From Runella defluvii (lineage in GTDB: Bacteria > Bacteroidota > Bacteroidia > Cytophagales > Spirosomataceae): a DNA stretch of 64,000 nucleotides. A model generated the notes under the pieces. That model had not been told where the DNA came from. It searched no databases and was given only the letters and a program-made list of their open reading frames with translations. Position numbers and translations under genes: made by a program. Location: the NCBI RefSeq assembly GCF_014195535.1, contig NZ_JACIBY010000003.1:376440-440439 (forward strand). The letters run 5' to 3'. This document shows positions 9,537 through 60,363 of the stretch, one piece after another (position 1 is the stretch's first letter; each line of letters begins with the position of its first letter).

Positions 9537-10110
9537 AATCTCTACCAAATTTTCTTACAAACACATTTACGCATTTTGAGGAGGAAGTGTTGTGTAAGCC
9601 CGTGTTTAAAGTTTTACCCGCAGATAAGCGCAGATGTAGAGCCGCAGAATACCGCAGAAGAATGGGTTGAAAAAGTCTTTTTTCTGCGAAAATCTGCGTT
9701 TGTACTATTCAGCGGCATCTGCGAGTAATTAATAATGAACTGAGATAAAAAAGTGATTAAAACTTAAAAAAATACGGTGAAATGCAGTTTTCTACAGATT
9801 TTCTAAAGATTCTTCGTCTTCAATGATTAAGATTTTCATAATCTCTACCAAATTTTCTTACAAACACATTTACGCATTTTGAGGACGAAGTGTTGTGTAA
9901 GCCCGTGTTTAAAGTTTTACCCGCAGATAAGCGCAGATGTAGAGCCGCAGAATGCCGCAGAAGAATGGGTTGACAAAGTCTTTTTTTAGCGTAAATCTGC
10001 GTTTGTATTATTCAGCGGCATCTGCGGGTAATTAATAATGAACTGAGATAAAAAAGTGATTAAAACTTAAAAAAATACGGTGAAATGCAGTTTTCTACAG
10101 ATTTTCTACA
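9505..10110. repeat. 303-bp tandem duplication spanning the response regulator start and promoter
   Basis: Unit 1 (9505-9807) and unit 2 (9808-10110) align with a constant 303-base offset and about 97 percent identity by eye. Unit 1 contains the start codon and first ten or so codons of the response regulator gene plus its whole upstream region. Unit 2 repeats this as a remnant that ends after those codons. The junction shows only a short match (AGATT-like). The duplication accounts for most of the 628-bp region between the response regulator and the DUF4136 gene. Confidence 0.85.
9614..9728. repeat. REP/MITE-like GCAGAT element (second copy at 9917-10031)
   Basis: A roughly 115-bp stretch starts with TTACCCGCAGAT and ends with its near reverse complement (ATCTGCGAGTAA here, ATCTGCGGGTAA in the second copy, where the 12-bp ends match perfectly). 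Inside are further CGCAGA/TCTGCG words in both orientations. Terminal inverted repeats, high self-complementarity and lack of coding potential suggest a non-autonomous mobile or REP-like element. It is present twice because it lies inside the 303-bp duplication. Confidence 0.55.
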
Positions 10111-10164
10111 GAATTGTGGTATTGTTTTGGTCATGAAAATAACCCAATTAATAGCTAGAAAACA

Positions 10165-10758
10165 ATGAAAAAGTTCGTAAAAATGGGGTCAGTGGTTTTC
10201 GGGATGATAGCCCTGACTGTTTCAGCTGCTTTCGCCCAAGTAAGTGCAGGAATCAACCCCGCTGCTGATTTGGGTAAGTACAAAACCTTTGCTTGGTTAC
10301 GTCCTGACGTCAAAGCGGGGCCTAATCCGATGTATAATAGCGATTTGCTTTCGGCCACCGTCAAGCAGTCAGTGGGGACGGAGTTGCTCACCCGTGGAAT
10401 GAAGGAAGACGAAGAGGCACCTGATGCACTCATTCAGTTTCATACTTACACCCAGCAACAACGCCGCACCAATTACTCAGGTGGTTTTTATCCCTACTTC
10501 GGTGGATGGGGGCGTTGGGGCGGTTTTTACCCTTACGGCATGATGGGCTGGGGGGGAGGAGGTTATCCTTACCAAACCCAATACACCGAAGGAACGCTTG
10601 TCATTGACATTCTGGATGCCAAAACCAAAGAAGTACTTTGGGAAGGGGTGGCTCAGGGCACGTTGAGCGGTAAAATCAACCGCATCCAAAACCAAATCAA
10701 TTCGAGTGTCCGTAAAATGTTTACCAAGTATTATCCATTAAAACAAACTGTGTCATGA
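10165..10758 (+). CDS. DUF4136 domain protein, secreted
   Basis: 197 residues with a clear signal peptide (about residues 1-25, ending AAFAQ). The mature part has the DUF4136 start (DLGKYKTFAWLRP) and end (LVIDILDAKTKEVLWEGVAQG), interrupted by a Gly/Tyr/Trp-rich insert (about residues 112-142). DUF4136 proteins are envelope proteins of unknown function. The stop overlaps the start of the next gene by 4 bases (ATGA), so the two are coupled. Confidence 0.82.
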   Translation: MKKFVKMGSVVFGMIALTVSAAFAQVSAGINPAADLGKYKTFAWLRPDVKAGPNPMYNSDLLSATVKQSVGTELLTRGMKEDEEAPDALIQFHTYTQQQRRTNYSGGFYPYFGGWGRWGGFYPYGMMGWGGGGYPYQTQYTEGTLVIDILDAKTKEVLWEGVAQGTLSGKINRIQNQINSSVRKMFTKYYPLKQTVS

Positions 10759-11405
10759 AAACGCTAAAGCACGCTCCATTTCAAGGGGTACGTCGATTTA
10801 TCGGCATAGGGGTAGTCGCTTTCGTTACCCTTTTTACCCTCGATTCTTGTTCGCCTAATACCTATACAATCGCTTCGGGTACTACTTACCAAAGCTACGT
10901 ACCTCCCACTTGGGCTCCTCAAGGCGCTGCGGTCGCGGGTGTTCAGTACTATTATTTGCCCGATTATGGCATGTATTACGACTTGTCGTCTCAACTATTT
11001 TGGTACAACAATGCGGGTATTTGGGCTTCATCGGCCTTTTTGCCAAGTATGTATGCTGGGATAAACCTTAATTCGGCCTATATCGTCATGCTTAATCAAG
11101 GCATTCGACGTCCTTGGTTAAACAACTCTTTTTACGTGCGTCGTTACCCTGCTGGTTATTACGCTCATCGTTCTGGTTTTTCTCCCGAAAACCGAATTTT
11201 GAACATGCCACGTCCTGCTAGTCCTCGTATGTCGGCTGGAAATATAGGGCGCCAAAACTACCGCAACGAATCAGCGCGGACGTATCAAGCACGACCCCAA
11301 ACTCGTCAGTCGTACCAGTCGTTTTCGGCGCCAAGAAGTTATGGCTATGGAGGTGGAGGATTCCGAGGTGGGTTTAGTGGCGGCGGTCGAGGAGGCCGAC
11401 ACTAA
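10755..11405 (+). CDS. Putative lipoprotein with glycine-rich C-terminus
   Basis: 216 residues of unknown family. A basic N-terminus and hydrophobic stretch end in TLDSC (about residues 28-32), a plausible lipobox. The middle is rich in Tyr, Trp and Pro, and the last 30 or so residues are Gly/Arg/Ser-rich (FRGGFSGGGRGGRH). It is translationally coupled to the DUF4136 gene, which suggests both work together at the outer membrane. No enzymatic motif is seen. Confidence 0.65.
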   Translation: MKTLKHAPFQGVRRFIGIGVVAFVTLFTLDSCSPNTYTIASGTTYQSYVPPTWAPQGAAVAGVQYYYLPDYGMYYDLSSQLFWYNNAGIWASSAFLPSMYAGINLNSAYIVMLNQGIRRPWLNNSFYVRRYPAGYYAHRSGFSPENRILNMPRPASPRMSAGNIGRQNYRNESARTYQARPQTRQSYQSFSAPRSYGYGGGGFRGGFSGGGRGGRH

Positions 11406-45239: not shown

Positions 45240-46481
45240 TTATTTTTTGCCTTTCGTAAGGTAATTCTCAAACAAATACACTCCGTTTTTATTGGCAATG
45301 ACGATGTCTAAGGTTTTGTCATTGTTCATGTCCTTTACCGTAACGTTCAGTCCCGACCCCGAATCGTTGTCAATCAGGTGTTCTTTCCAGTAGGGGGCTT
45401 TCCCTGGGGTAAACGCTAGCCAAAATAAAATAGAAGCGTCGGCGTCGCCTGGGTCGCGGCCGTGGTGGGCCAAAAAGCGTTTGCCCGTGATGTATTCTTT
45501 TTTGCCGTCGCCGTTTATGTCGGCCATGATGGAAGAGTGCGTTTGGGCGGTGGTAGTACTGATGAGGTGGGTTTTAAAGTTGAGGTTGCCTTGGGCATCC
45601 GTGATTTGTTGGTGCCACCATACCCCCAATGCGTGGGCGGAGGCGCTTACCACGTCATTTTTACCGTCGCCATCCACGTCCAAAATCTGCATGTGCGAGC
45701 AAGGGTCGCCGAGGTTGGCAGGGTGAAATTTCCAGTTGCTCGAACCAAGGTCTTTGGTTCCTTCAAACCATCCTTCCCGTACCACAATGTCGTTCAAGCC
45801 GTCTTTGTTGAGGTCGCCGTAGCCAATTCCGTGCGAAAAATTTTCGGTTCCAGCTACTTTTTCGCCCGTTAGAGGAAATCGTTGCCATTTGGTTTCGCCT
45901 TTTTTGGTGGGGGCTTTAAGCCAAACAATTTGTTTTTTGGCGGGGTCGCCGCACAAAATATCAAGCCGTCCGTCTTTATCGATGTCCACAAACGCGGGCG
46001 ATTCGTTGGATACACCCATCGAATCGGCGATGATGTGTTTCGTCCAAGCTTTTACAGCCTTGTTCTTAGGGTTTTCAAACCAAAAAGCGGGTTTTCCTGG
46101 AAAGTCAATGATGACCACATCATCCCAGCCGTCCAGATTAACGTCCATTCCTAAATTCAGAAACGAATTGCTGTATTCTTTTCGGGGGTTAAACACATTG
46201 GAAAACATCCCGAAGCCCACGGCGGGCGACTCAGTTTGTTTCGCGTCGGCGGGGTGCATTTGGTGGACTTTCCAAGTGGGAGCTTCAAACCAATAATACC
46301 CCGCCACAATGTCCATTTTACCGTCGCGGTTTAAGTCGGCGACGGTCGCCCCCTCCGAAATAAATTCGCGGGTGAGGGTGGTCTTCTTAAAACCCGAAGG
46401 CAGCATGGTGGTGACGGGTTGTTGTGCCCAACTACCAAAACTGACGATGAAAAGAAACAGTATAAAAGCCCTGAAAATCAT
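45240..46481 (-). CDS. Secreted FG-GAP/VCBS-repeat protein
   Basis: 413 residues, signal peptide to about 19. It has at least five repeats carrying calcium-binding DxDxDG-like loops (DLNRDGKMDIV, DVNLDGWDDVV, DIDKDGRLDIL, DLNKDGLNDIV, DVDGDGKNDVV, DINGDGKKEYI), which form a beta-propeller like integrin alpha chains. Such proteins in Bacteroidota are often placed in operons with sugar-metabolic enzymes; a binding or enzyme-accessory role is likely. No catalytic site is seen. Confidence 0.85.
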   Translation of the reverse strand: MIFRAFILFLFIVSFGSWAQQPVTTMLPSGFKKTTLTREFISEGATVADLNRDGKMDIVAGYYWFEAPTWKVHQMHPADAKQTESPAVGFGMFSNVFNPRKEYSNSFLNLGMDVNLDGWDDVVIIDFPGKPAFWFENPKNKAVKAWTKHIIADSMGVSNESPAFVDIDKDGRLDILCGDPAKKQIVWLKAPTKKGETKWQRFPLTGEKVAGTENFSHGIGYGDLNKDGLNDIVVREGWFEGTKDLGSSNWKFHPANLGDPCSHMQILDVDGDGKNDVVSASAHALGVWWHQQITDAQGNLNFKTHLISTTTAQTHSSIMADINGDGKKEYITGKRFLAHHGRDPGDADASILFWLAFTPGKAPYWKEHLIDNDSGSGLNVTVKDMNNDKTLDIVIANKNGVYLFENYLTKGKK

Positions 46482-46570: not shown

Positions 46571-47773
46571 CTAGGTTTTATGGCCTTTAAGTACAATTTC
46601 GTGGTCGCCCGCCCACTGAGCCATGTCTTGTTTACTGATGGCGGCGGCCATCATGTCTGGAAAAAGGTCGGGGGTACAGGCAAATACGGGAACACCCAGC
46701 GAAGCTAAAAATTTGGCGTTTCCTTTTTCATAGGAAGGTGTTCCATTGTCGTCTAAAGCAAGCAAAACGATTAACTGAACGCCATCGGCCACCAATTCTG
46801 TCATCCGCATTCGCATTTGCTTTTCGGGCTCTCCACCCCCTTCGTACAAATCACTTATCAAAACGAGGATGGTTTCGTCGGGTTTGGTAATTATTTTTTT
46901 GCAATAGGTTAATGCTTTATTTGTGTCATTACCGCCTCCCAATTGGACTCCAAAAAGTAAGTCTATGGGATCTTTCAAATCCTCGGTTAAATCAACCACT
47001 TGCGTGTCGTAGGCTACTAATTGGGTTTTTATCTGGGGCAAAGAAGCCATTACCGCGCCAAAAATCCCTGTATAAACAACAGAAGTTCCCATCGAACCAC
47101 TTTGGTCGAGGCAAAGAACCACGTCTTTGAGTGAGCGTTTGCTTTTGCGCCCATACCCAATGCGGGTTTCGGGGATAATCGTTCGGTACTCGGGTAGATA
47201 ATGTTTTAAATTTTTACGAATGGTCGTGTTCCAGTCGATTTCGTTATAACGTGGCCTTTTGTTACGGCTGCTGCGATTCAACGCCCCCGTGATGGCCTGA
47301 ACCGTTTTTTGTTCCAACTTTTGAATAAGCTCCTCTACGACTTTCTGAACTACCCGACGGGCGGTATCTTTGGTTTTTGAGGGAATAAGTTTGCCCAATT
47401 CCATTAAACTCGCCACGAGCGCCACGTTTGGAGTAGCTTGTTCTAAAATTTCGGGTTCGAGCATCAGTTTTTGTTGTAGAACGGGCTGCTTGAGGGCATC
47501 TCCTTGCATTACTTGGACCACCGACTGCGGGAAATAATTGCGGATGTCGCCCAGCCAACGAGCAATATCGGGTTGCGATTGTCCACGCCCTACTTTTGAA
47601 TTATCCTTTTCAATGTATTCAAACCGTTGCTTTCGTTCAAATTCATAGAGTGCCGAAAGGGAAGCATCAATTTGTGCATCCATCCCGCTGAGTTGACAGT
47701 CGGTTCCGTCGGCCTCGTCACCGCCTAAAATAAGCCGCCAACGGCGTAAGTTTTGAGAATCAGTGTTTGACAT
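46571..47773 (-). CDS. VWA (CoxE-like) domain protein of the MoxR operon
   Basis: 400 residues from the ATG at 47773, whose first codons overlap the end of the upstream gene. An N-terminal helical part of about 200 residues precedes a von Willebrand A domain with an intact MIDAS: DQSGS (Asp223, Ser225, Ser227), Thr284 in GNDTNKAL, and Asp308 in LISDLYEGGG. MoxR ATPases typically act with VWA proteins as a metal-dependent partner that recognises the substrate. It is the last gene of the operon and resembles YehP of E. coli. Confidence 0.88.
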   Translation of the reverse strand: MSNTDSQNLRRWRLILGGDEADGTDCQLSGMDAQIDASLSALYEFERKQRFEYIEKDNSKVGRGQSQPDIARWLGDIRNYFPQSVVQVMQGDALKQPVLQQKLMLEPEILEQATPNVALVASLMELGKLIPSKTKDTARRVVQKVVEELIQKLEQKTVQAITGALNRSSRNKRPRYNEIDWNTTIRKNLKHYLPEYRTIIPETRIGYGRKSKRSLKDVVLCLDQSGSMGTSVVYTGIFGAVMASLPQIKTQLVAYDTQVVDLTEDLKDPIDLLFGVQLGGGNDTNKALTYCKKIITKPDETILVLISDLYEGGGEPEKQMRMRMTELVADGVQLIVLLALDDNGTPSYEKGNAKFLASLGVPVFACTPDLFPDMMAAAISKQDMAQWAGDHEIVLKGHKT

Positions 47774-50732
47774 TGGCTTTTTCGTTGGATTGGCGTGCGT
47801 CATTTTCTTTAAAAAATTGCATATCAGACATTACTTCTGAATAAACGATAGGGGGAACTTTTTCAAACGAGATAAGTCGTGTATCGTTTTTGTTGGAAGG
47901 CTCATCGTAAACGTAGCTACCAAACTGTACGCTTTTTTTGCTCACAAACATAAGTCCACCAATTTCGGCATTGTCGTCTAAATAACCGACCCCAATACTT
48001 CCTTCCTGCATCAGAATGGCCGTAATTCCAAGTTCTGAAAAGTCTTTGTAATAACTTGAAATGCCGCCGCCGTCCACAACGGATCCTCTAAACCAACCCG
48101 ATTTTTCGAGTCTTGCTACAAAAGCGTAGCCTCCCATTTGGATGCCCTGAAATTGTAGCGAGAGGGTAATCCCCATATCTTTTTCGTCAAATGGGATGAT
48201 AGCTCGTTGAAGTTGAGGGAAAATCGGTGATAAGTCAGCGTCATAGAGGGCTTCCGTCCAGTACGCTAGTTGGTCTGGGCGCAACTGAAGGGGATGAACC
48301 ATGCCAATAAAAAGGTCTTCGGCTAGGTCAATTTCGTCGCCTTCTTCGTTGATAAGGGTTTGGTCTTCATCGACTTTGAAGGTAAAAAGCAATTGCTGGT
48401 TTTCGTCGTACGCTCCCCAAATCAACCGAATCGCATAGACAAACATGACGGGGTTGGTCATAAAAAACGCCTGCCATTTTTCAGAAGCCCATTTTCGTTG
48501 AATAACCAAATACTGTTCAAGACGGCTCGATTGGGATTTGACAATGTCCCGAATCTCTTTCCCAATTTCTTTGAATTCGTCTTGCACTTCTTTAGTGGTG
48601 CCTTTGGGGAGTGATTTGAAAACTTTGTTGTCTTCGTTTAAAAAAGCAAGTTTGAAATCGTTGCCGATGAAAGCCCGAAAAGTATCTCCCTGTACGTCAA
48701 ACGTTTTGAAAAGTCCGTCAAAGCCAAAATCAGGGATGATGGCATCGGCAAGGTCATAAGGCGATACGCCAAGTTCTTCGGCCACCAGACCAAAGGATTC
48801 GTTGGCCGCCGCTCCGATGTTTTTGTTCTTGTTTTTGTACTTTCGGGAGAAAAACTCCACGCCTCGGAGGGCTTTGGTACTACCGTTGAGGGCAAGGGCT
48901 TTGACGGCATATTCGGCCATTTTTCCCCGACCTGCTTCGGCCCATTCGTTTACTTTTCGTTTGAGGAGGTCTATTTCATGATCGCCGCCTAAGATACTGC
49001 CGATGGTTAGGCAAAACTTTTGTTTGGAGTCGGCACCCCCAAGGGAGAAATAGTTATGAAGAATTGCTTTGGCAAAAGGCTGGGCTTGGGTTTTATCAAG
49101 GAAGTCCAAAAGTGCCTTGGCTTCGAGGTCGATACGAATTTCTTTGGCTCGACTCATGCGATAAAGCAAAAACCGCTTCGCGTCTTGCTCCAGCAACGTG
49201 CCATCGAGGTAGCTTAGGGCAGGAAGTTGGGCATCATCAAGCCACGTTTCCAAGGGGCTGTCGATTTTACCTCTCTCCTTGGCTTTTTGGATTTTTTCCT
49301 GAATCTGCTTTTTAGTGGGAGGGGCCGATAATAACCCTTTTAAGCCTTCGAGCATTAGGTCGCGGGCATCGTCATTTTTTTCGGTTTCGAGCGCATTATT
49401 GAGAATGGCGATAGCTTCATCGGTTTTAATAAGTGATAAAATCAAAGCCCCCACTTGTCGAACATCGGCTTTTTTGTGTTGAAGTAAAACCGTCGCTTTG
49501 GAAATGGAGCTGTTACCTAGTTTGCTGAGGGTTACTGCGGCCAATTCGCGTATTTTCTTGGTTTTATGCGCGCTAAGTGCCCATACTTCCTCTTCGTATT
49601 TGCTAAAATCGAGGGTGCCTAGAAGCTTAAAATATTCTTTAAAAGAATGCGTGTTTTCCCAATTTAGGTTTTGAATATTCATTCTTAACCCTTCCATGAT
49701 GAGGTCTAGGCCGTTTTGGCCTAAATGCAAGGCAATTACCTTGGTGACTTCAATGGGTATCCGATAACATTTTTTGAGAACGTTGTGAATAATCGCTTCG
49801 GCACCCTCAATGTTGTTTTTGAGAAGGTAGTCAATGCTCGTTTCAAGAAAAGTGACATGTCGTCCAAGTGATTGATGGTAGGTGCTGCTTGGATTGTAAT
49901 GGAGGCCTGCCGATTGCATGATATGATGCTCTTTAGACAATACGTTGAACATCAATTCAGTTGTGCGAGGTTGGTATTTTTCGGGAAAATGAGCCAGCAG
50001 TAGGTTATTAATGGCGATTAAATTTTCCGACTTTTTGACCGTTTCTACCCGTTTTTCGATGAAAGGTTCGTAGAGTTCAGCATTGAATGCAAGTAATTTT
50101 TCAAAAACAGGAATTTGGTTCTCGAATTGTAGAAATGTACTAACGTGCCCGTGGACAAAGTCGGGTTGGGTCGCTAAAAGTAATGTTAGAAACGGCAGAA
50201 AGTCAGGTTGAAAAGCTTGAAAGTAAACTTGTTTTTTCTCCGTTAAATTTTCTAAAATAAATTGACCTAAACCAGTGGGCTTGGCCGAAGTATCTAATAG
50301 CTTAGCGTACCCAAACACGAGTCCATTGATGAAGAAAGGCAAGGTGATTTGGTATTTTTGGGCGTGGGTTTCGAGTTGTTTTACTAAATATAATTGATTA
50401 TCGCCTTCAAGTTGACGAACCATCCAGCGTACAAAATAATAGTAACAACCATAATGGTAGTCTTTAATAGATTTTGGAGCCTCCCAGATGGTTGGATGGG
50501 TCGCAATATCCATCACGCGGTCATGTAACTCGTTCCAATCGGTTAGTTTGGAAGGAAGAAGGGTAAGTAACTCAGAAAAATACCAATAACTGGTACTGCC
50601 TAAGTGGGGTTTTCGGTCGGTTTCGCCGTTTAGGTAGGCAAAAACCTGGTCAAAGGTCGCTTGGTTATAGCTATAGGAATAGCCTTCTTTGACAGAGTTG
50701 ATGTAGTTTTGAAGCTGAACGTCTTGATTCAT
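47760..50732 (-). CDS. DUF4132 (MolR-like) protein, paralog 1
   Basis: 990 residues, HEAT-like helical repeats through the middle (IRELAAVTLSKLGNSSISKA, then VRQVGALILSLIKTDEA), and a C-terminal DUF4132 domain (about 730-960), with SSRLEQYLVIQRKWASEKW and FVYAIRLIWGAY. This domain is the YehI/MolR type. No enzymatic site is recognised. It is a clear paralog of the gene at 53053, sharing many segments (for instance the Arg-Glu-Ile-Arg/EIEKEIRD-type stretch and RLEQYL/RLEKYM). It overlaps the VWA gene by 14 bases. Confidence 0.87.
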   Translation of the reverse strand: MNQDVQLQNYINSVKEGYSYSYNQATFDQVFAYLNGETDRKPHLGSTSYWYFSELLTLLPSKLTDWNELHDRVMDIATHPTIWEAPKSIKDYHYGCYYYFVRWMVRQLEGDNQLYLVKQLETHAQKYQITLPFFINGLVFGYAKLLDTSAKPTGLGQFILENLTEKKQVYFQAFQPDFLPFLTLLLATQPDFVHGHVSTFLQFENQIPVFEKLLAFNAELYEPFIEKRVETVKKSENLIAINNLLLAHFPEKYQPRTTELMFNVLSKEHHIMQSAGLHYNPSSTYHQSLGRHVTFLETSIDYLLKNNIEGAEAIIHNVLKKCYRIPIEVTKVIALHLGQNGLDLIMEGLRMNIQNLNWENTHSFKEYFKLLGTLDFSKYEEEVWALSAHKTKKIRELAAVTLSKLGNSSISKATVLLQHKKADVRQVGALILSLIKTDEAIAILNNALETEKNDDARDLMLEGLKGLLSAPPTKKQIQEKIQKAKERGKIDSPLETWLDDAQLPALSYLDGTLLEQDAKRFLLYRMSRAKEIRIDLEAKALLDFLDKTQAQPFAKAILHNYFSLGGADSKQKFCLTIGSILGGDHEIDLLKRKVNEWAEAGRGKMAEYAVKALALNGSTKALRGVEFFSRKYKNKNKNIGAAANESFGLVAEELGVSPYDLADAIIPDFGFDGLFKTFDVQGDTFRAFIGNDFKLAFLNEDNKVFKSLPKGTTKEVQDEFKEIGKEIRDIVKSQSSRLEQYLVIQRKWASEKWQAFFMTNPVMFVYAIRLIWGAYDENQQLLFTFKVDEDQTLINEEGDEIDLAEDLFIGMVHPLQLRPDQLAYWTEALYDADLSPIFPQLQRAIIPFDEKDMGITLSLQFQGIQMGGYAFVARLEKSGWFRGSVVDGGGISSYYKDFSELGITAILMQEGSIGVGYLDDNAEIGGLMFVSKKSVQFGSYVYDEPSNKNDTRLISFEKVPPIVYSEVMSDMQFFKENDARQSNEKANVKH

Positions 50733-50743
50733 AGCTGTTTGTT

Positions 50744-53005
50744 TTAATTTAATCCCAATAATAACTGCAACATGGGCAAAACTTCCTCGGCGCGTTGGTG
50801 ATCGAAATCGGCTGTATCGGTGGGTTCAAGAACTATTGTTTGTTCTACATTAGCTCCTTTTTTGGCTTTTTCACCCAGTTGTTTGCGCTCCGAGTGTTCA
50901 AATTTGGAAAAGGTTCGGCGGAGGATTGGAAGTAATTCAATAAAATAGTCTTCTGAAAGTTCAAAAACCCAACGGTAGAGCAGGTTCCAAAGCACGTTAT
51001 CGTACAGCAGAATCATGCCACTTCCTTTGAGAAAACCTTCAACCCATCCTGCGGAGTAAATAGGGTCATTTCCCTTGGACAAGGCCAGTTCAAACCGTTG
51101 GGCAGTTTGTGCTTCGTTCAATTCGCTGGCATCAAACAAGAGTCGGCAGGTACAACCCAAAATGAGCGAATTGACACCCTCTTTGTCGAGTAAAAGGTGT
51201 AATGTACTCCGCCATTGTTGGGTAAGTGTTTCATTTTCAATGAGACGTGTGGCTTCATTGACGCTTTTGATGTAATCAAAAACCTTTCTTGAATTTTCGT
51301 CGTCGAGGCCGTAGCAAGCATTGGGCAATCCGATACAAATTCGGGTGAGAAGACCTTCTACCAATTGATTGATAGCCGACAAATCCGTTTTCCGAACGTT
51401 CCCGTAGCGACTCACTTCGACCAAAGGAGGAAGCGCCGTCATCAGTTCAATAATGTCGGATGAAACCGTGGCAACCTCGCTGATTTTACGCAATAGTTGC
51501 TCTATGGCTCCAAACAATTCGGCGGGAATGGCCTGCTGAATCAGGTCGGCAAGGTCTTTGATATCGTTGGTCTTTTGACTTTTGTCCACCAAAAACTTGG
51601 TACAGGCGTCTTCCACCGTATTTCCCCATATTCCTTTTTCGATTAGGTGGATAAACATTTCGGGCTGCCAACGAAGCGTCCAAGCCTCCTTGAATGTTCC
51701 TTTGGTGCGAGCGGCCAACTGCGTGCCCCATTTGATGTCCAAAATGGCAAGTCGGTAGATGAGCTTACTCCGATTTAAGTCAGTTTCTTTGCGCAGGTCA
51801 AGTTCATAGTCTTTCTTTTCAGCCGTGATGGGCAATCGGTAGCTTTTGGCTAACTTTTCAAAATTTTCTTGCAGGGGTAATTTGGGTAGTTCGTCGGGGA
51901 CTTTTCCAATTCGTTGGGCAACAATCAACTCTTTTTTGACCAATTCGAGTAAGATTCCGTCGCCCATGCACATGACAGTTTGGGTGGCTTCGTTGAGTTC
52001 GTGAAGTCCCACCCGCGACAGCGCCCGCAGACTCGCCAGCGTCTCCGCCAACCGAAAGGCTTCGATGACGTGTGCGGTAGAAATGTCCATTTTTTTCTGC
52101 CTAAACAGCCGAGCTACTTTGGTGAGCCAGCGCGAGCCATCGTCGTTTTGGCCGTATTTCCAAAGGTGTTCGTACCAGCCTGGCGAGGTAATTCCCGCAC
52201 CGTAGCCCGAAAACATCGAAAGGCGGTCGTTGGTCCAAGGAATCCACGTACAGCCCACTTTAATTTTTGTTTTGGGCAAGGCTTTCAACAGTTTGGCGTC
52301 CTGCTTCGCCGTGGTTTCGACATCGAGGAGGGCAGGGGCGTGCCAAGCACCACACACCACGACAATGTTGGTATAGAGTTCGTTTTGTGCTTTACGAATT
52401 AGTTCTCGCATGTACGCTTCGCGGGCCACGTTTTCTTGGTCTAATGCAGATTTTACCTGGGCGGCACGAAGTTCGCTCATCATCAACAACACCGCTTCAA
52501 AATGTTCTTGCGCGTTGTTAGGGATGTATTTTTGCTCAAAGTGATGTTCCCACCAAAGTTCCGAATTTTCGTAACCTGCCACGTCGGCAAAGTAAGAAAT
52601 GGGGTCTTTGAAGGGAAGCAGAAACTCCTGTTCTTCAGCTTGCTCCTCAACTGGTTGCTCTTTTTTGACCTCTCGTAGGTTGATTTGTTCTTGAAAAGAG
52701 ATGGCCATAGGCAAGTCTGCCATGCGAACGGGAAGCTGTTGGGCATGGGCGTACGAAATAGCTTGCCATTCGGGAGAAAATTCGGCAAAAGGATAAAACG
52801 TAGCTTGCTGAAGGTCGTCGAGATTATACCCCAGCACGGCCACGGGCGGTTTTAAACCACTTTTTCCCACCCACTGAACGATGGAGTCGAGTTCGGGCGG
52901 GCCTTCCACCAAAATAATATCAGGCTGTATCTGCGCCAATCGCTCAACGACATTCTTGGCCGAACCCACCCCGTGATGACGTATTCCTAAAATATGAAGC
53001 GGCAT
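50744..53005 (-). CDS. DUF5682 protein with TraB/TIKI-like motifs
   Basis: 753 residues. The N-terminal 230 residues have a pattern like TraB/TIKI-type proteins: RHHGVGSAKNVV (His10, His11, Ser15), DIILVEGPPE (Glu34, Glu38), an RMADLP strand near 95, and REAYMRELIRKAQNELYTNI leading to VVVCGAWHAPAL (His222). In TraB/TIKI proteins the corresponding H-x-x-S, E and GxxH groups are proposed metal ligands or active-site residues. The remaining 500 residues are mostly helical. It is the family found in E. coli YehM. The function is unknown; the relation to TIKI is my inference. Confidence 0.82.
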   Translation of the reverse strand: MPLHILGIRHHGVGSAKNVVERLAQIQPDIILVEGPPELDSIVQWVGKSGLKPPVAVLGYNLDDLQQATFYPFAEFSPEWQAISYAHAQQLPVRMADLPMAISFQEQINLREVKKEQPVEEQAEEQEFLLPFKDPISYFADVAGYENSELWWEHHFEQKYIPNNAQEHFEAVLLMMSELRAAQVKSALDQENVAREAYMRELIRKAQNELYTNIVVVCGAWHAPALLDVETTAKQDAKLLKALPKTKIKVGCTWIPWTNDRLSMFSGYGAGITSPGWYEHLWKYGQNDDGSRWLTKVARLFRQKKMDISTAHVIEAFRLAETLASLRALSRVGLHELNEATQTVMCMGDGILLELVKKELIVAQRIGKVPDELPKLPLQENFEKLAKSYRLPITAEKKDYELDLRKETDLNRSKLIYRLAILDIKWGTQLAARTKGTFKEAWTLRWQPEMFIHLIEKGIWGNTVEDACTKFLVDKSQKTNDIKDLADLIQQAIPAELFGAIEQLLRKISEVATVSSDIIELMTALPPLVEVSRYGNVRKTDLSAINQLVEGLLTRICIGLPNACYGLDDENSRKVFDYIKSVNEATRLIENETLTQQWRSTLHLLLDKEGVNSLILGCTCRLLFDASELNEAQTAQRFELALSKGNDPIYSAGWVEGFLKGSGMILLYDNVLWNLLYRWVFELSEDYFIELLPILRRTFSKFEHSERKQLGEKAKKGANVEQTIVLEPTDTADFDHQRAEEVLPMLQLLLGLN

Positions 53006-53052
53006 TTCGTAAGTTTATTAATTTCCCGTTTTGAGTAGTTAAAAGGTAATTT

Positions 53053-56022
53053 CTAAACGGCATTTATTAATCGGTAAATATCAAATAACACTTCTGAAAA
53101 GAAAACTGGGGGTATATCTTTCAATGATAACGTATCATTCCACGATTTTCCTCTAAATGAAATATTATTCACAGTGGCTTTGGCATTCCCACCTTGATAC
53201 CAAGCATAGACACCTTCTATTTCGGCATTTGCCTGAATTGAAGCGGTTTGATGTTTTTTAATGAGTTCAAGATGTCCACCATCACCCGTACTTTTAATCC
53301 ATCCATATTTTTCAATGGTACTGCTTGCATAATCAGCTCCTTTGGGAATATCCTGATTCTGGAAAATACGCGTATAGCTCAGTTCGAGTTCGTCCGTAGA
53401 TGGAGTAAAAGTTTTTCTTTCTAATTGACTAAAAACTGGTAGAATACTGAGCTCGTAAACTTTGCTCTGCCAAGCTTTGATTTGTTCTTGAGTTAGATAG
53501 ATAGGGTGTAAAATAGAAATATAATCACCCTCTTCAAATTCTATTTCGTCGTCATCAAGGTTCAATAATGAAGTGTCTTCTTGGCAGTAAAACACCTCTT
53601 TAAATTCTTTCTCTTTGTTAAAAATGCCCCAAAGTAGCTTCATCGCATAAACAAACATGATAGGGCTTTCCAAAAAAGCAGCTTGCCATTGACCAATAGA
53701 CCATTGACGTTCTTCAATCATGTATTTTTCAAGACGGCCACTTTGGGTTTTTATGACGTCTCTAATTTCTTTTTCAATTTCTTTAAATTCCTTTTTGAGG
53801 TCTGACGAAGCTGATTTTGGAAGAGATTTTCGCATTTTATTGTCTTCATCAAAATAGCAAAGTGTAAAGTCTGAATTGACAAATGCTCTGTATTCATCTC
53901 CATCAACCTCAAACGATTTAAAGAGCCCTTCAAATTCAAAATTTGGAATGATTCGGTCCGCTAGTTCGTCGGTTGTTATGTTTAATTCAAGAGCAGCAGC
54001 GTCCAAGGCTTTAATGGCGCGGTCACTAACTGTGGGTCTTTTACTTACATATTTTCTTGAAATTACCTCAATACTCCGAAGAGCCTTGTTGGTTCCGACT
54101 TGCATCATGGCATCAATGGCGTATTCGGCCATTTTATACCTTTTTTCATCCATGTTATATTTGAAAATACCTTTTAAGGTTGTCAAGGCTTCATCACCGC
54201 CCAACATTCCTCCAGTTGTTAAGTAGTACTTGAATTTTGAATTGGAACCAGAGTCAGCAAACGCTTTGAGTAGCGCTTTGGCAAACCCTCCTGATTGATT
54301 TCGGTCAATTAAAGGTAATAATTGTCTAAGTTCGATGTCAGAATTTAAACCCTTACCTCGGGGCATTCGATAGAATAAAAACCTTACCTCTTCTTTGGAA
54401 AATGTCCCCTGATTGTTTTTCCAATAAATAGGCGGGAGCTGAGACTCATCGATCCATTTTTCGGAAAATTTGGAAAGTTTGCCCCGTTTTGAAGCATTTT
54501 GAATAATGGTTTTTGCTTGAGTTAGAGAAAGTGGATTCGCGAAAAGAGTTTCTTCTAGTGCCTCAAGGATAACATCACGAGTATCATCATTTTTCTCAAC
54601 TTCTAATACCGCATTTAAAACTCGCTCAGCATCTTCTGTCTTTAATTTTGACAGTACAAGCGCTGCTACAATTCTTGTATCGGCGGTTTTAGCTTGTAAA
54701 AAGTTTTTGGCTGTTTCAAACGATTCGTCACCCAATTTTGCAAGGGTACTCGCCGCTAAGTTTCGGGTGTTTTTGGTTGCATTATGAATTGCATACTCCC
54801 AAATTTTAGGGGCAATCGACGAAAAATTATATTGATCAATTAATGAAAAAACGACGTCGTGGAAGTTTTTTTTGAGGTATTTTGGATTTTTGGTTAAAGC
54901 AATAACAAGAAATTCAAGCGAATCACTTCCAAAATGTTCACTTAAAAATCGAGGGAATTCTGGGTAAAAAAAGTCACTGACTTCGAGGTAATTTCGTATC
55001 CGTTCTTTAGCTGTATTTTCGTCTTTTTTTAACAGCCATTTCGCGATAGCCACACTGGAAGGTTGTCCATTTGCATAGGATTCAATTAAATAACTGGAAT
55101 AAACTTGCCCTTCTGCAATGCATTGTTGAGTATAATATTCATTTATAAACTGCTCAATTTTATCATTGTATTTATTAGGTATATATTCGTCCATTTTAAT
55201 ATACACACTAAATCGGTTATATGGCTCCGTGTGTATATCTTTCATAACCTCTACTACATCTTGCTCAAAATTAACTGCATTTTTATCAATGAGATACAAG
55301 ATATTTTCTATATCTAATTTTTTACAAGGTAGATATGCAGAAATTGAATTGTCATAAACACTATCCATTCTATACATAAATTTAACGTATTGATTTTCAA
55401 GTGCTTCTTGATGATAGGTGAACAAAAAATCTAAAATATGAGATTTTAAATTACGGTAACCTCCAAAAGCATTTTGAAAGACAATCTCTAAAAGTTGTTG
55501 TGATTCTTCTGTTTTTGTCGTTTTTAATTGTTCGAGAAGGTATTTTCCGTATAAAGAAAGTTGTTTTATTCTATCTTGAAAATAAAATAAAACTGAGTGA
55601 TTACCGTTAGAGAATAAAATTTGACATATATCAGTATCTTTAAATCCTTGTTTCTTAAAAAAGTTGAGATATTTGTTGAACTCTTCTTCAATTAGTTCAC
55701 TGTAACTTGTCAATTTAGACCTTATAAAATTCCATATAATCCTCTTATAAATAGAATTGTCAGAGACAGGTCTGATGAGTTGATGAATCACAATATCCTC
55801 TATTGTCCAAAGCTCATTTTTTTTAATAATGGCCCAGTCTAAAAAATCTACACCTCTATATTCGACCGATTCAAGAATAGAAATGTCATTTTTTTGTAAT
55901 AAAAAATCTAGGACTAAGCTGATTTGTTGGCTATACCTAAGGGCGTAATTTGGTTCACGTTTTTCTACATTTTCAATTCGCCCTTGAGCAGCATTAATTA
56001 AAATATTTGTTCTTGAATCCAT
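53053..56022 (-). CDS. DUF4132 (MolR-like) protein, paralog 2, AT-rich 5' half
   Basis: 989 residues from the ATG at 56022 (a TTG 20 codons upstream is in frame but outside the conserved start). HEAT-like repeats (NLAASTLAKLGDESFETAKN) and a C-terminal DUF4132 domain (GRLEKYMIEERQWSIGQW, FVYAMKLLWGIF) match the other paralog over the last 550 residues. The first 350 residues are more diverged and their DNA (about 55.0-56.0 kb) is visibly AT-rich compared with all neighbours, with many AAA, ATT and TTT codons. This suggests a separate origin or rapid change. A 13-bp inverted repeat precedes the gene. Confidence 0.85.
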   Translation of the reverse strand: MDSRTNILINAAQGRIENVEKREPNYALRYSQQISLVLDFLLQKNDISILESVEYRGVDFLDWAIIKKNELWTIEDIVIHQLIRPVSDNSIYKRIIWNFIRSKLTSYSELIEEEFNKYLNFFKKQGFKDTDICQILFSNGNHSVLFYFQDRIKQLSLYGKYLLEQLKTTKTEESQQLLEIVFQNAFGGYRNLKSHILDFLFTYHQEALENQYVKFMYRMDSVYDNSISAYLPCKKLDIENILYLIDKNAVNFEQDVVEVMKDIHTEPYNRFSVYIKMDEYIPNKYNDKIEQFINEYYTQQCIAEGQVYSSYLIESYANGQPSSVAIAKWLLKKDENTAKERIRNYLEVSDFFYPEFPRFLSEHFGSDSLEFLVIALTKNPKYLKKNFHDVVFSLIDQYNFSSIAPKIWEYAIHNATKNTRNLAASTLAKLGDESFETAKNFLQAKTADTRIVAALVLSKLKTEDAERVLNAVLEVEKNDDTRDVILEALEETLFANPLSLTQAKTIIQNASKRGKLSKFSEKWIDESQLPPIYWKNNQGTFSKEEVRFLFYRMPRGKGLNSDIELRQLLPLIDRNQSGGFAKALLKAFADSGSNSKFKYYLTTGGMLGGDEALTTLKGIFKYNMDEKRYKMAEYAIDAMMQVGTNKALRSIEVISRKYVSKRPTVSDRAIKALDAAALELNITTDELADRIIPNFEFEGLFKSFEVDGDEYRAFVNSDFTLCYFDEDNKMRKSLPKSASSDLKKEFKEIEKEIRDVIKTQSGRLEKYMIEERQWSIGQWQAAFLESPIMFVYAMKLLWGIFNKEKEFKEVFYCQEDTSLLNLDDDEIEFEEGDYISILHPIYLTQEQIKAWQSKVYELSILPVFSQLERKTFTPSTDELELSYTRIFQNQDIPKGADYASSTIEKYGWIKSTGDGGHLELIKKHQTASIQANAEIEGVYAWYQGGNAKATVNNISFRGKSWNDTLSLKDIPPVFFSEVLFDIYRLINAV

Positions 56023-56052
56023 GTCTTTATTAAGGTTTTTGTGTTTTAATAT

Positions 56053-56089
56053 TAGTGTTTTGTTAATTTCTATGACTAACAAAACACTA
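56053..56089. repeat. 13-bp inverted repeat inside the MoxR operon
   Basis: TAGTGTTTTGTTA (56053-56065) and its complement (56077-56089) with an 11-base loop, in the 82-bp gap between the MoxR and paralog 2 genes. No T-run follows on the transcribed strand, so RNA processing or stabilisation is as likely as termination. It lies at the edge of the AT-rich segment. Confidence 0.6.
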
Positions 56090-56104
56090 GTTGATTGTCG
56101 GTAG

Positions 56105-57184
56105 TTACAAAGTGATTTCCTTACAAGCCCGATACACGTCTTTCCATTCGGCGCGAGGTTTGACGACGGTTTCGAGGTATTCGTTCCAGACTACTTTGTC
56201 CTGAACAGGGTCTTTGACAACCGCACCTACCAAACCTGCGGCAACGTCTTGGGCATTTAGGCGACCGTCGCCAAAATGAGCAGCCAGGGCAAGTCCATTG
56301 TTGACGACTGATATGGCTTCGGCGGTGCTCATGGTACTGGTGGGTACTTTGATTTTGGTTTTCCCGTCGGCTGTCACTCCCGCGCGTAATTCGCGGAAAA
56401 TGGTCACAATGCGTTGAATTTCTTTCAAAGAAGGTGCTTCTGCGGGAAGTTCAAGGGCTTTTTGTAAACTAGAAACACGGTGCTGTACGATCGAAATTTC
56501 TTCTTCCATTGAATCAGGTACGGGAAGAATGACGGTATTAAAACGTCGTTTCAACGCCCCCGAAAGCTCATTTACTCCTTTGTCGCGGTTGTTGGCCGTC
56601 GCAATGACGTTGAAACCCGAAACAGCCTGCACTTCCATGTTGAGTTCAGGAATGGGTAAGGTTTTCTCGGACAAAATCGTGATGAGCGTGTCTTGGACGT
56701 CGGCGGTGATACGCGTCAACTCCTCGATGCGGGCAATTTGCCCCGTCCGCATCGCATACATCATGGGAGTGGTTACGAGGGCGTTTTCGGTGGGGCCTTC
56801 GGCCAATAGGCGAGCATAGTTCCAACCGTATCTTATGGCTTCTTCGCTCGTTCCTGCCGTCCCTTGAATAAGTAAGGTCGAATTTCCTGAAACGGCCGCC
56901 GCTAAGTGTTCTGCCACCCACGACTTGGCCGTGCCAGGAAGCCCATAAAGCAACAACGCGCGGTCGGTCGTAAGGGTAGCCACGGCAATTTCCATCAATC
57001 GTCGGCTTCCGATATACTTGGGGGAAATTTCAAACCCGTTTTTCAATTTTCCGCCCATTAAGTATTGCACCACGGCTTGGGGCGACAATTTCCAGTTGGT
57101 AGGGCGTTTGTGGGCATCTTGTTTGCCAATTTCTTCCAATTCAAGCGCAAACTGTTGTTCGGCATGTTGTCTTAGTACGTTCAT
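56105..57184 (-). CDS. MoxR-type AAA+ ATPase
   Basis: 359 residues. Walker A GLPGTAKS (81-88), a Walker B position IARIEELTR (about 150-158) with Glu-Glu in place of the usual Asp-Glu, sensor 1 ATANNRDKG (about 196-203) and arginine finger candidates in ALKRRFN (Arg213/214) are visible, followed by a helical lid. MoxR ATPases remodel or assemble partner complexes together with VWA proteins. It overlaps the DUF5691 gene by 4 bases. Family length and motifs match YehL of E. coli. Confidence 0.9.
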   Translation of the reverse strand: MNVLRQHAEQQFALELEEIGKQDAHKRPTNWKLSPQAVVQYLMGGKLKNGFEISPKYIGSRRLMEIAVATLTTDRALLLYGLPGTAKSWVAEHLAAAVSGNSTLLIQGTAGTSEEAIRYGWNYARLLAEGPTENALVTTPMMYAMRTGQIARIEELTRITADVQDTLITILSEKTLPIPELNMEVQAVSGFNVIATANNRDKGVNELSGALKRRFNTVILPVPDSMEEEISIVQHRVSSLQKALELPAEAPSLKEIQRIVTIFRELRAGVTADGKTKIKVPTSTMSTAEAISVVNNGLALAAHFGDGRLNAQDVAAGLVGAVVKDPVQDKVVWNEYLETVVKPRAEWKDVYRACKEITL

Positions 57185-58752
57185 AGTGCTGTTATTTGTT
57201 CTATTTCTTCTTTTATTTCTAGGTGTTTAAAGAGAATGTCGGCAACGTGGGTGTTCCAATAGTTTCGTTGCCAATCTTGGGATAATTCATTTTGAAGTGA
57301 GTAAAGCAGGTCTTTGGAACTGACGTGCAATTTCCGCCCCAACTGATTTAAAAAATTTCGGTCGGAAAAAACGTAGTAATAGTTTGAACCATCAAGCTCT
57401 TTTACCAACGCGGACAACGCCTTTTTTGAAAATTGAGATGACCAATTTTGCGGCGGACCTTCCGTTGTGATGGCTTTTACCAACGCAAACGAAAGTTGGG
57501 AATGATGTAACAACAGTTCTTCTTGGTCGGGCCAAGGCAAACGTTGAAGTAGGTCTGTTTTTTGTACTTCTAAGTGGGCAGTTACTTTCAAAAAAGCATT
57601 GATTTCATCGGGCGACGCAAACGCCATTGCTTCACTGAAGGCGTATAAATACGCCGCTGTATTTTTGCTTTGAGTGTTGATAAAAAACTCGACCAATCGT
57701 GACAGGTTTCCTTCAAAAAAAGTGATTAAATGACTTGGATGTAGCCATCGAAGCAACGATTGTAGCCAGTATTCGGCGTCCGAAACGCCTTTTTGAGAGC
57801 TTAATTTGTCGAATCCAAAGCATTGGTTCATTTCGTCCCCGTTCCAAAAATCCACCTCTGACTCAGGAAGTTGAAGCTGATAATTGGCTGATGAAAAGCC
57901 AATTGCGGAAAATAAACCCTTCTTTTTTGTGATACACTTGGTAATTTGCTCGGCTACCACTTTGCCGAATCGACTCCCTTGAATGGAAAGCCGTAATTCG
58001 TTGATGTGGTGAATAGTCTCAAGGGTAACGGGTTTGGGCGAAGTCAGATTTTTGGTCAGTTCCTCATGAATTTGTTCTAAAAAGGGCTCATCGTCGGCCG
58101 ACAAACCAATTTTTAACGTGGACAATAGATTTTTTCGGTCTTTGGCCGATTCGTTGGGCCAAGCCTGAGCCAAAAGTGACAACGCCTCGGCTGGATTTTG
58201 GCGTCGAAGTTCGCTCAAAAATGCCTTTCGTTCGGTAGATTTTCCTTCTTCCCACTGCGTAATGCTCAGCGAAGCGTCCGCGATTTGCCAAGATTCATTG
58301 AACTTTGCCAGCCATTTTCCACGCACACCAAGGAGAAGGTGGAGCTGAGGAAGGAGTTGCTTGGGGGTATTGCTCAATGCGTTCACAAGCAAGTCATCGG
58401 TCAAAACCCACTGTTTTTGGTGGCATTTTTGAAGTAGCAATTCCAGTAAATAGGGGTTCGCTGGCGATAAATCCAACACTTTTTTCCAAAGGGCAACCGT
58501 TTTTGGCGGACAGAAATTCGAGGTCTCAGTGTCCTCCAAAGCCAAATTGGGGAGGGTAATTTTGGTCGGATTTTGCCCAGCACGACTGTAATTATATAGA
58601 ACTGCCGCCGCTTTTAGGAAATAACCTTCAGTATCATTTTTATTGCTTTTTGCTAAGATTTCTTGAATGGAGGCGGGGAGTGCTTCGGTCGGTAAGGGGT
58701 GCCTTTCGGTACCCAACAGGGCGGTTTTTTTTAATAATTCCCAATGAAACAT
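57181..58752 (-). CDS. DUF5691 protein
   Basis: 523 residues, starting MFHWELLKKTALLGTER, the typical DUF5691 opening. The rest is helical, HEAT-like, with segments such as LLQKCHQKQWVLTDDLLVNA and RNLLSTLKIGLSADDEP. No catalytic motif is seen. DUF5691 is known mainly from clusters with SWIM, MoxR and VWA genes, as here. It is translationally coupled to the MoxR gene and 30 bases from the SWIM gene, so it probably forms part of the same complex. Confidence 0.82.
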   Translation of the reverse strand: MFHWELLKKTALLGTERHPLPTEALPASIQEILAKSNKNDTEGYFLKAAAVLYNYSRAGQNPTKITLPNLALEDTETSNFCPPKTVALWKKVLDLSPANPYLLELLLQKCHQKQWVLTDDLLVNALSNTPKQLLPQLHLLLGVRGKWLAKFNESWQIADASLSITQWEEGKSTERKAFLSELRRQNPAEALSLLAQAWPNESAKDRKNLLSTLKIGLSADDEPFLEQIHEELTKNLTSPKPVTLETIHHINELRLSIQGSRFGKVVAEQITKCITKKKGLFSAIGFSSANYQLQLPESEVDFWNGDEMNQCFGFDKLSSQKGVSDAEYWLQSLLRWLHPSHLITFFEGNLSRLVEFFINTQSKNTAAYLYAFSEAMAFASPDEINAFLKVTAHLEVQKTDLLQRLPWPDQEELLLHHSQLSFALVKAITTEGPPQNWSSQFSKKALSALVKELDGSNYYYVFSDRNFLNQLGRKLHVSSKDLLYSLQNELSQDWQRNYWNTHVADILFKHLEIKEEIEQITAL

Positions 58753-58782
58753 CTGATAATGAATGGAAAAGGCTGTTAATGT

Positions 58783-60138
58783 TTATAATAGCTGATACGA
58801 AAAATTTTGAACGATGCCCAAAGGCCAAACCGACGTGGATTGCCGCAACAGAAAAAGAGGAGTAGGTTGTCCAGCGGTAAAAGCCAATAATTTCCAAATG
58901 ATGGCTTCTTCAAACGAGTCATGGATACGCATCACTGCTCCTGTGGTGTCTTGAAGGTACCAATGAGTTTGGTATTTGGTGATTTGAAGATGTTCGACCA
59001 ATTGAGGGATGTCATCAGCCCAGGGGTTTTGGGCAATGGCACGGGTGTATTCTAGTTGCGAATGGTGCCAGCTTTCAAGTCCTTCCAGCGAGGTAGGAAG
59101 AAATGATTTACTTTCTAAGTGATGCTTTACCAATGCACGAAAGGGACTGTGGCTTGGATAAAACACCAAACGAGCTTTGGAGGTATTGCCAGGCACAAGC
59201 GGGGTTTCAATGGCAGCGGTTTTGTAAGCAAAATTGAGCACCAACGCGAAACGCTTGGAGTTACACCCGTACAGCCAATTTCGTTGGAGGACAATGTCCT
59301 CTTCTTGGGTGCTACGTCTGCCAATCACAACCCATTCATCGTCAATGGTTTCGGCTTCTTTGTTTTCGATTAGTTCTTTTTGCTGCACATTCCATCCCAC
59401 CCGACTTTTCACTTCCTCTTGTACAAGCGGTGGGAGCTGGTCGAGGTTTCTAAATGCCTCAATTTGTAAGTGTATTTTTGCCGCAATTTCGAGGGCTTGG
59501 GGTTGCCACGAATCGCCTTTGTAATAGTTGATTTTGGTAAATTCTTTGACCAACGAGGCAAAACCCGTCGCTTGGGCATCCACCATGCGGGCGGCCATTT
59601 TTTCAAAGTAAGCGCTACCTTTTTCGGGAAGTGCCAACAACCCACCCCTCACCATGTCTCGAAGCCAAAGGTCAAGCTCGGCAATGCCTGCTTCAACTTT
59701 CAGCAAACGGTCGTTTTGGCGCTTTTCCTTGTCTTTGGCTTGTTTGTCTGTTTTTTCGGAATCCTGTTCCTCACTTATTGGCGGCTGTATTTTGGCTTCG
59801 GCTTTTTCGGAACGTTTGTTGATCCATTCGCTGACCCAACTAGGCTCGGTCGTGAGTTGAGGAATTTCACCGTTGCGGCGTGCAACCAAAAACAACAGTC
59901 CTAAACCGTGTTTGCACGGAAATTTTCGGCTAGGGCAAGAGCATTTAAAGGCGGTATTTTGGAGGTCGATTTGGGTTCGGTAGGGGTCTTTTCCGCTTCC
60001 TTGCACTTCTCCCCACAGTACCCGCTCGTTGGATTGGTAATTCAACCATTTGCGTTCATTGGCTAAGTCTTTTCCCGCTTTAAGCGATGAAGCATCGGGC
60101 GCAAGCTGGTTTACCTGGTCCTCGTTTAGAAAATTCAT
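58783..60138 (-). CDS. SWIM zinc-finger protein, first gene of the MoxR operon
   Basis: 451 residues. A SWIM zinc finger (CxCx(n)CxH) is present at residues 66-77: CSCPSRKFPCKH (Cys66, Cys68, Cys75, His77). A Lys/Glu/Gln-rich linker (about 100-140) precedes a helical C-terminal region. SWIM fingers bind DNA or proteins. It resembles YehQ of E. coli and starts the transcript; 225 bases upstream are AT-rich and hold only the terminator of the next gene upstream. Confidence 0.87.
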   Translation of the reverse strand: MNFLNEDQVNQLAPDASSLKAGKDLANERKWLNYQSNERVLWGEVQGSGKDPYRTQIDLQNTAFKCSCPSRKFPCKHGLGLLFLVARRNGEIPQLTTEPSWVSEWINKRSEKAEAKIQPPISEEQDSEKTDKQAKDKEKRQNDRLLKVEAGIAELDLWLRDMVRGGLLALPEKGSAYFEKMAARMVDAQATGFASLVKEFTKINYYKGDSWQPQALEIAAKIHLQIEAFRNLDQLPPLVQEEVKSRVGWNVQQKELIENKEAETIDDEWVVIGRRSTQEEDIVLQRNWLYGCNSKRFALVLNFAYKTAAIETPLVPGNTSKARLVFYPSHSPFRALVKHHLESKSFLPTSLEGLESWHHSQLEYTRAIAQNPWADDIPQLVEHLQITKYQTHWYLQDTTGAVMRIHDSFEEAIIWKLLAFTAGQPTPLFLLRQSTSVWPLGIVQNFSYQLL

Positions 60139-60290
60139 AGAAAACCTGATTTTTTAGGAGATGCAATTAACGAAAAAATAGGTTTATGTGAAATAAAAAT
60201 AGATAATCTATCGGAAAAATTTTATTATTCGGTTTCTCTGTCATCATTCAAATCACGAAATTCAGCCGAATAAATTGTGGGAAACAAAAA

Positions 60291-60328
60291 AAACGTAGTT
60301 GTTAAAATCAATTTTAACAACTACGTTT
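60291..60328 (-). terminator. Intrinsic terminator of the PQQ/cupredoxin gene
   Basis: Perfect 18-bp arms (AAACGTAGTTGTTAAAAT, 60291-60308, and complement 60311-60328) with a 2-base loop. On the minus strand a T-rich tract follows, so it ends transcription of the gene that stops at 60364. Confidence 0.88.
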
Positions 60329-60363
60329 TACTTCCTCTAAAGGAAAATCAGGAAAAAGAGAAC

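Follow-up and report, generated by a model that had tools for sequence, protein, structure and literature searches.

The stretch of DNA analysed, hereafter the window, comprises 64,000 nucleotides of the Runella defluvii genome (contig NZ_JACIBY010000003.1, positions 376,440 to 440,439), and the subject of this study is an operon of seven open reading frames (ORFs) at 46571..60138, all on the minus strand. An earlier note on the window had read these genes as SWIM, DUF5691, MoxR, DUF4132, DUF5682, DUF4132 and VWA and had taken them for one machine. The gene ends given there were correct, and every family named scored above its Pfam cut-off: SWIM with 22 bits (cut-off 19.6), DUF5691 with 217, AAA_5 with 121, DUF5682 with 827, VWA_CoxE with 156 and the two DUF4132 proteins with 116 and 122 (cut-off 27). 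The intergenic gaps were 30, -4, 22, 47, 11 and -44 bp, the third becoming 82 bp if DUF4132a begins at the ATG at 56022, in agreement with the earlier description of gaps of at most 82 bases or overlaps. The genes make up a real and mobile MoxR-VWA system: five of them form its core, the DUF4132 genes are accessory to it, and it is a variant of the YehL kind. Its features are listed below.

58783..60138, minus strand: SWIM zinc-finger protein, 451 aa, core gene 1; motif C66-x-C68-x6-C75-x-H77
57181..58752, minus strand: DUF5691 protein, 523 aa, core gene 2; modelled as an ARM/HEAT-like helical solenoid
56105..57184, minus strand: MoxR AAA+ ATPase, YehL-like, 359 aa, core gene 3; GLPGTAKS Walker A, E154-E155, N198, R213/R214
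53053..56022, minus strand: DUF4132a, accessory, slot 1; start at ATG 56022, ORF opening at TTG 56082; GC 34%, private N-terminus
50744..53005, minus strand: DUF5682 protein, 753 aa, core gene 4; candidate TIKI-like hydrolase with a long helical C-terminal part
47760..50732, minus strand: DUF4132b, accessory, slot 2; present in congener locus L020, absent from L018
46571..47803, minus strand: VWA_CoxE protein, core gene 5; MIDAS D233-x-S235-x-S237, D318
60290..60329, minus strand: 18-pair hairpin with T-run, probable terminator of the upstream gene

By comparison with L018, the ATG at 47773 is the likely start of the VWA protein. The GC content of DUF4132a was 34%, compared with 43-51% in the six other genes of the operon. 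As the hairpin at 60290..60329 is probably the terminator of the upstream gene, the operon would need a promoter of its own. A scan for sigma-70 promoters gave no more matches than shuffled sequences, and terminator-like sites as a class were not above shuffles either (19 versus 21).

Conservation of the gene set was determined in the best 80 of at least 575 confirmed DUF5682 relatives, a sample that leans to window-like DUF5682, by scanning these loci with profiles made from the window genes and their relatives. By record title the 80 loci include Bacteroidota, cyanobacteria, Planctomycetota, Chloroflexi, Verrucomicrobia, Proteobacteria, actinomycetes and the Deinococcus group. Genes were counted in the 58 loci with at least 4.5 kb before and at least 1.5 kb after DUF5682; the other 22 had too little flank. 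SWIM, DUF5691, MoxR, DUF5682 and VWA were present together in 53 of the 58 loci, in the order of the window in 52. Four of the remaining loci had DUF5682 alone, and one lacked SWIM and DUF5691. DUF4132 was present in 7 of the 58. The five core genes together with two DUF4132 genes occurred in none of the 80 loci, and the exact seven-gene set was seen only in the window.

A similar picture was obtained with 198 Bacteroidota genomes. All seven genomes with DUF5682 had a DUF5691 match at E<=0.001, six of them over the Pfam cut-off. DUF5691 matched in eight genomes altogether, and the one without DUF5682 scored 20 bits (Fisher p 4e-12 for co-occurrence, kinship ignored). DUF4132 was found in six of the 198 genomes and shared only the window genome with DUF5682 (Fisher p 0.2). 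The five core genes are co-inherited beyond chance and in a fixed order, and the DUF4132 genes come and go. A single obligate machine of seven genes was rejected on the locus counts, on congeners with the operon at the same site and on the distribution over the 198 genomes. The co-occurrence search suggested in the earlier note thus upheld the five-gene core and not the full set.

The DUF5682 gene was present in 5 of 13 genomes of the genus, the window genome included. In the window the operon is flanked by genes at 60364-63210 and 45240-46481. These two genes are adjacent in seven congeners (G005-G009, G011, G012), with 31-177 bp between the match ends, and have the operon between them in three genomes (the window genome, G003 and G010), three of the 13 genomes being ambiguous in this count. 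In G005 and G008 the operon lies at another place and the flank site is empty. The empty site in seven congeners and the occupied site in three genomes are signs of mobility of this real operon. At the same site, G010 (locus L018) has the five-gene core without any DUF4132, and in G003 (locus L020) DUF4132b is the only addition to the core. L018 and L020 have a common 11-base spacer between MoxR and DUF5682, which makes a gain of DUF4132a in the lineage of the window probable. The junction between DUF5682 and VWA in L018 retains the bases that end DUF4132b in the window, and DUF4132b was therefore probably lost in L018. Between the window and L020 the synonymous divergence (dS) was 1.5-2.0 for DUF4132b and VWA, compared with 0.33-0.58 for the other four genes; the segment at 46571-50732 shows this raised dS as if both genes had been replaced jointly.

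Over the final ~680 positions of their alignment, the two DUF4132 proteins of the window shared 38% identity. In a tree of the C-terminal part, DUF4132a formed a clade with the DUF4132 proteins of L025 and L028 (100/100). Both of these genes lie directly before DUF5682, the one in L025 after a MoxR fragment; the contig of L028 begins inside the gene. DUF4132b grouped with three slot-2 proteins of the genus, and slots 2 and 3 were not single clades. By this tree, DUF4132a and DUF4132b are separate lineages. An origin of DUF4132a as a tandem duplicate of DUF4132b was rejected on account of the clade with L025 and L028.

An exchange of the N-terminal part was found in the DUF4132 genes of loci L021 (G008) and L022 (G005), whose five other proteins were 91-99% identical. 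In blocks of 100 alignment columns the two DUF4132 proteins were 15-47% identical in the first five blocks and 93-100% in the last six, with codons ~22-432 replaced. The DNA match ended at L021:10348, ~60 bases into the gene, and restarted at 11582, with no match across L021:10349-11581. The replaced parts had a GC content of 0.27-0.38 and the shared part, without its short final bin, one of 0.41-0.51; the dS of the swapped part was not used because of the poor alignment. The N-terminus of the L021 protein was found in 1 of 13 genus genomes, its own, and that of DUF4132a in 1 of 121 family genomes, again its own, with no homologue elsewhere there in either case. Among eight pairs with C-terminal identities of 60-68%, the N-termini were either 51-62% or 15-23% alike.

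The gene following metG in E. coli carries WGR (65 bits) and DUF4132, whereas YehI is without WGR. In the records this gene carries no name; by domain and place it is taken as molR/yehH (PMC5541211). Its products in loci L007 and L109 were 47-78% identical up to residue ~700 and 94-100% beyond, and in L007 and L107 a sharp dip to 50-53% occurred only at ~500-700. In 5426 E. coli genomes, the N-terminal allele of the L007 type was covered to at least 80% in 4003 and that of the L109 type in 681, with partial matches in 5369 and 5339, respectively. At the same coverage the C-terminal block of DUF4132 was present in 5274 genomes and yehM in 5161; the whole 15-kb yeh cluster was present in 3963. 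Two or three DUF4132 genes were found in each of five E. coli chromosomes examined. The sharp N-terminal swap in DUF4132 is a new finding and makes a recognition role testable. A profile comparison of DUF5691 with DUF4132 was weak (E 0.0028, probability 11%).

The DUF5682 protein contains GIRH (7-10), E34, R195 and GAWH (219-222). H10, E34, R195, G219 and H222 were invariant in 80 DUF5682 sequences and G7 was conserved in at least 90%; in 29 members including that of E. coli all six motif residues were invariant. As Sanchez-Pulido and Ponting reportedly described in 2013, the TIKI superfamily has a motif of two GX2H with a conserved Glu and Arg. The order and rough spacing in DUF5682 correspond to the G-x-x-H, E, R, G-x-x-H of TraB relatives, with the Glu directly after strand 2 and the Arg preceding the second GxxH. 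The structure model (pLDDT 92.7) has an alpha/beta N-terminal part followed by a long, mostly helical remainder. For such folds a His-Glu mechanism has been proposed (PMC6254334). The motif makes DUF5682 a candidate TIKI/TraB-like hydrolase. Sequence searches of the PDB with DUF5682 and with DUF5691 gave no useful match.

The intact Walker A, the E-E pair at Walker B and the sensor and arginine residues of MoxR were invariant in 13 aligned sequences except for the first two, variable Walker A positions. With E. coli YehL the window MoxR scored 218 bits in phmmer. In the PDB only midasin and NorQ were matched at E<=0.001 (24-49 bits), and RavA, of which structures exist there, was not. MoxR also matched GvpN (34.6 bits, cut-off 267) and MadB (49 bits), both far below cut-off, and NorQ (24 bits). 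On these pairwise scores the window MoxR resembles YehL more than it does other members of the MoxR group. The MIDAS of the VWA protein was intact and its motif residues, like the four metal ligands of the SWIM motif, were invariant in 26/26 aligned sequences; the VWA protein had no PDB sequence match at E<=0.1. The ATPase, the MIDAS protein and the zinc finger named in the earlier note were present with their key residues intact. As to its two large HEAT scaffolds, HEAT_2 matches were below cut-off in both DUF4132 proteins; DUF5691 is likewise solenoid-like by model. The AlphaFold model of DUF5691 (pLDDT 88) was almost all helix, and Foldseek gave a single match at E<=0.001 (an engineered protein, 7e-4), followed by designed armadillo repeats, with low TM-scores; in this model DUF5691 looks like a solenoid. 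Two pairs of core proteins occur as natural fusions: DUF5682 (676 bits) with VWA_CoxE (217 bits) in one 1257-aa protein of a Streptomyces plasmid (L009:11455-15228), and SWIM with DUF5691 in one ORF in L002, L062, L072 and L087 (one on a Hymenobacter plasmid, the other three among the 80 loci).

Some loci departed from the common layout. In L023, L029, L044, L054, L061 and L133 DUF5682 was present with no other core genes found nearby, and the neighbours tested include capsule, HPPK and phosphoesterase genes. A DUF5691 relative at L132:4654-7249 lies beside a WD40 beta-propeller protein on a different contig from DUF5682, and from this context DUF5691 may serve another system as well. In L024 (contig C70 of G051, ~8719-11095) DUF5682 is split into two adjacent ORFs in an operon that also has DUF4132, SWIM, VWA and MoxR, probably a broken copy. 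The VWA gene of a Methylosinus plasmid (L005:14220-15388) is in three ORF pieces, the other core genes being whole ORFs or annotated as whole.

We tentatively propose, as a quite possible reading, a horizontally moving YehL-type MoxR-VWA machine that acts on a TIKI-like hydrolase and is equipped with exchangeable DUF4132 recognition arms. The MoxR ring would dock through the VWA/MIDAS protein and remodel or activate DUF5682, which would be a TIKI/TraB-like hydrolase, probably a protease. SWIM and DUF5691 would form a constant targeting arm of zinc finger and solenoid, with the DUF4132 proteins as optional targeting arms. In the latter, docking to the machine would fall to the constant C-terminal ~550-580 aa, and the reading of a changing target to the variable N-terminal solenoid. 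The machine would probably be used under DNA damage or invasion, because LexA regulation is given for E. coli molR (PMC4576408, PMC11039860), here equated with the first DUF4132 gene in the yeh cluster. In L107 a LexA-like 16-mer, three mismatches from the consensus used, lies just before the gene, its end nine bases from the annotated start (expected 0.05). In D. radiodurans a WGR gene and a DUF4132-containing operon rise on DdrO depletion, and moeA and moeB were unchanged in that experiment, which bears on the molybdate idea behind the name MolR (PMC8533742). A further-reaching version, which we consider decidedly unlikely, takes DUF4132/MolR/YehI as exchangeable recognition subunits through which a damage-induced MoxR-VWA machine unleashes a TIKI-like protease on invader or damage complexes, in immunity or quality control. 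If true, it would describe an unrecognised system, with its core gene yehM in ~95% of E. coli and kin scattered over many phyla.

Several results weigh against the proposal of a hydrolase machine with exchangeable arms. The N-terminal exchange was shown only for a single pair of congeners and a single gene of E. coli. No swap was seen between the window and L020 (N- and C-terminal identity 71/79%) or in three Chitinophaga pairs (51-62/63-68%), and overall identity in YehI was 93-96%, falling locally to 77% in a single pair. As 46 of the 53 full operons have no DUF4132, the arm model fits a minority; four of the 58 loci have DUF5682 without the other four genes in reach, so that DUF5682 can work without MoxR. 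DUF5691 was on a different contig from DUF5682 in two of the seven Bacteroidota genomes and below cut-off in a third (G218). The possible TraB-like enzyme of the earlier note has the motif set, but profile and fold searches did not confirm the kinship: hhalign of DUF5682 with TraB gave E 0.11 with the second motif aligned (unrelated controls 0.16 and 0.35), Foldseek with the whole model gave nothing at E<=0.001, helical repeats dominating, and among the 29 members one matched DUF5694 (3e-4), one ChaN (0.024) and one TraB (0.11). SWIM and YehQ were aligned in the motif only (E 0.077), with no similarity detected outside it. Neither L107 nor L007 contains exact CTGTN8ACAG, and a search of L107 for the 20-base LexA consensus found nothing even with three mismatches allowed.

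Other MoxR proteins such as CoxD and NorQ mature partner proteins, and the operon could accordingly be a maturation chaperone, in which MoxR-VWA inserts metal into, or completes the folding of, DUF5682 or a cellular enzyme, SWIM and the solenoids being assembly factors with no role in conflict. The CoxE type of the VWA gene, the MoxR matches to GvpN and NorQ and the near-universal yehM in E. coli fit this explanation, and the DUF5682-VWA fusion suits a dedicated client. The nearest neighbours were scanned in 99 of 194 listed ORFs, called by a simple script and excluding ORFs >900 aa, and their commonest Pfam families were metabolic or regulatory, each in at most 3/99. Maturation nevertheless leaves unexplained both the patchy insertion and loss within one genus and the replacement of DUF4132 N-termini, and we consider it somewhat unlikely. 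Ordinary decay of a dispensable operon, with relaxed constraint in a scaffold as the cause of the divergent DUF4132 N-termini, would account for the broken copies (the split DUF5682 of G051 and the fragmented VWA gene of Methylosinus), for a stop in DUF4132 and a frameshift in yehP, seen in two E. coli, and for the L018 junction, which resembles a deletion scar. However, the divergence begins and ends abruptly in the DNA, between blocks 92-95% identical, a loss of synonymous similarity over 1.2 kb is not an effect of relaxed constraint, and N-termini fell into two classes at like C-terminal identity. Decay is highly improbable as the explanation.

Defence against phages or plasmids would have the DUF4132 N-termini sense invader proteins, MoxR-VWA relay the signal and DUF5682 act as effector hydrolase. 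A mobile operon at a fixed site with empty sites in congeners, the private, low-GC N-termini and the likeness of MoxR, VWA and a third part to described ternary conflict systems (PMC7159879) speak for it. The best PADLOC match among the seven proteins, however, was 1.5e-4 over 33 residues of MoxR. Although 34 PADLOC families each matched at least one of the 99 neighbour ORFs, none matched more than two at E<=1e-10 (raw counts, without background rate), and a defence island was rejected on this count. No relative was confirmed among 35 pattern matches in viral contigs, and a phage origin was rejected as well. With yehM almost fixed in E. coli and DUF4132 missing from most full operons, we regard defence as possible but unlikely, and the defence-like machine of the earlier note was not shown.

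No function for the yeh genes as a set, and no paper on DUF5682 or DUF5691, was found in the literature searched, most subscription papers being outside its coverage; this accords with the earlier statement that none is described for the complete set. With the present results the five-gene core is separated from the exchangeable DUF4132 genes, two pairs of its proteins are linked by natural fusions and candidate catalytic residues are named. "Function unknown" thereby becomes a set of testable questions, namely which residues, which stress and what the variable arm binds.

Among known systems, the MoxR-vWA ternary conflict systems (PMC7159879) likewise combine MoxR and VWA with a further component and are mobile with variable parts. 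However, none of their third components (VMAP, iSTAND, FtsH, beta-propeller) was detected in the seven window proteins by Pfam scan, the bpMoxR match was below cut-off (24 versus 27 bits), and the VWA protein is without an effector domain; "yeh", "TraB" and "DUF4132" do not occur in the main text of that paper. With the TIKI/TraB/PrgY/ChaN/EreA superfamily DUF5682 has in common the two GxxH, Glu and Arg in similar order and spacing, but it differs in its large helical C-terminal part, and sequence and fold matches were not significant. The yeh cluster of E. coli (molR/yehH, yehI, yehL, yehM, yehP, yehQ) has the same MoxR, DUF5682, VWA, SWIM and DUF4132 families, with two to three DUF4132 genes in the five chromosomes compared with two in the window. 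The kinship noted earlier held for yehL, yehM and yehP, whereas YehQ and the window SWIM protein are alike in the motif only. The E. coli cluster is without DUF5691, of which none was found in the E. coli control either, its order (DUF4132s-MoxR-DUF5682-VWA-SWIM) is unlike that of the window, and its first DUF4132 gene carries a WGR domain that neither window DUF4132 protein has. YehL is one of seven MoxR subfamilies (PMC3893208), and the window MoxR was 38-43% identical to the MoxR of Allorhizobium, E. coli, Iodobacter and Streptomyces loci. VWA (yehP), DUF5682 (yehM) and, by motif only, SWIM (yehQ) link the window to YehL-type systems, from which it differs in carrying DUF5691 and two DUF4132 lineages in two slots.

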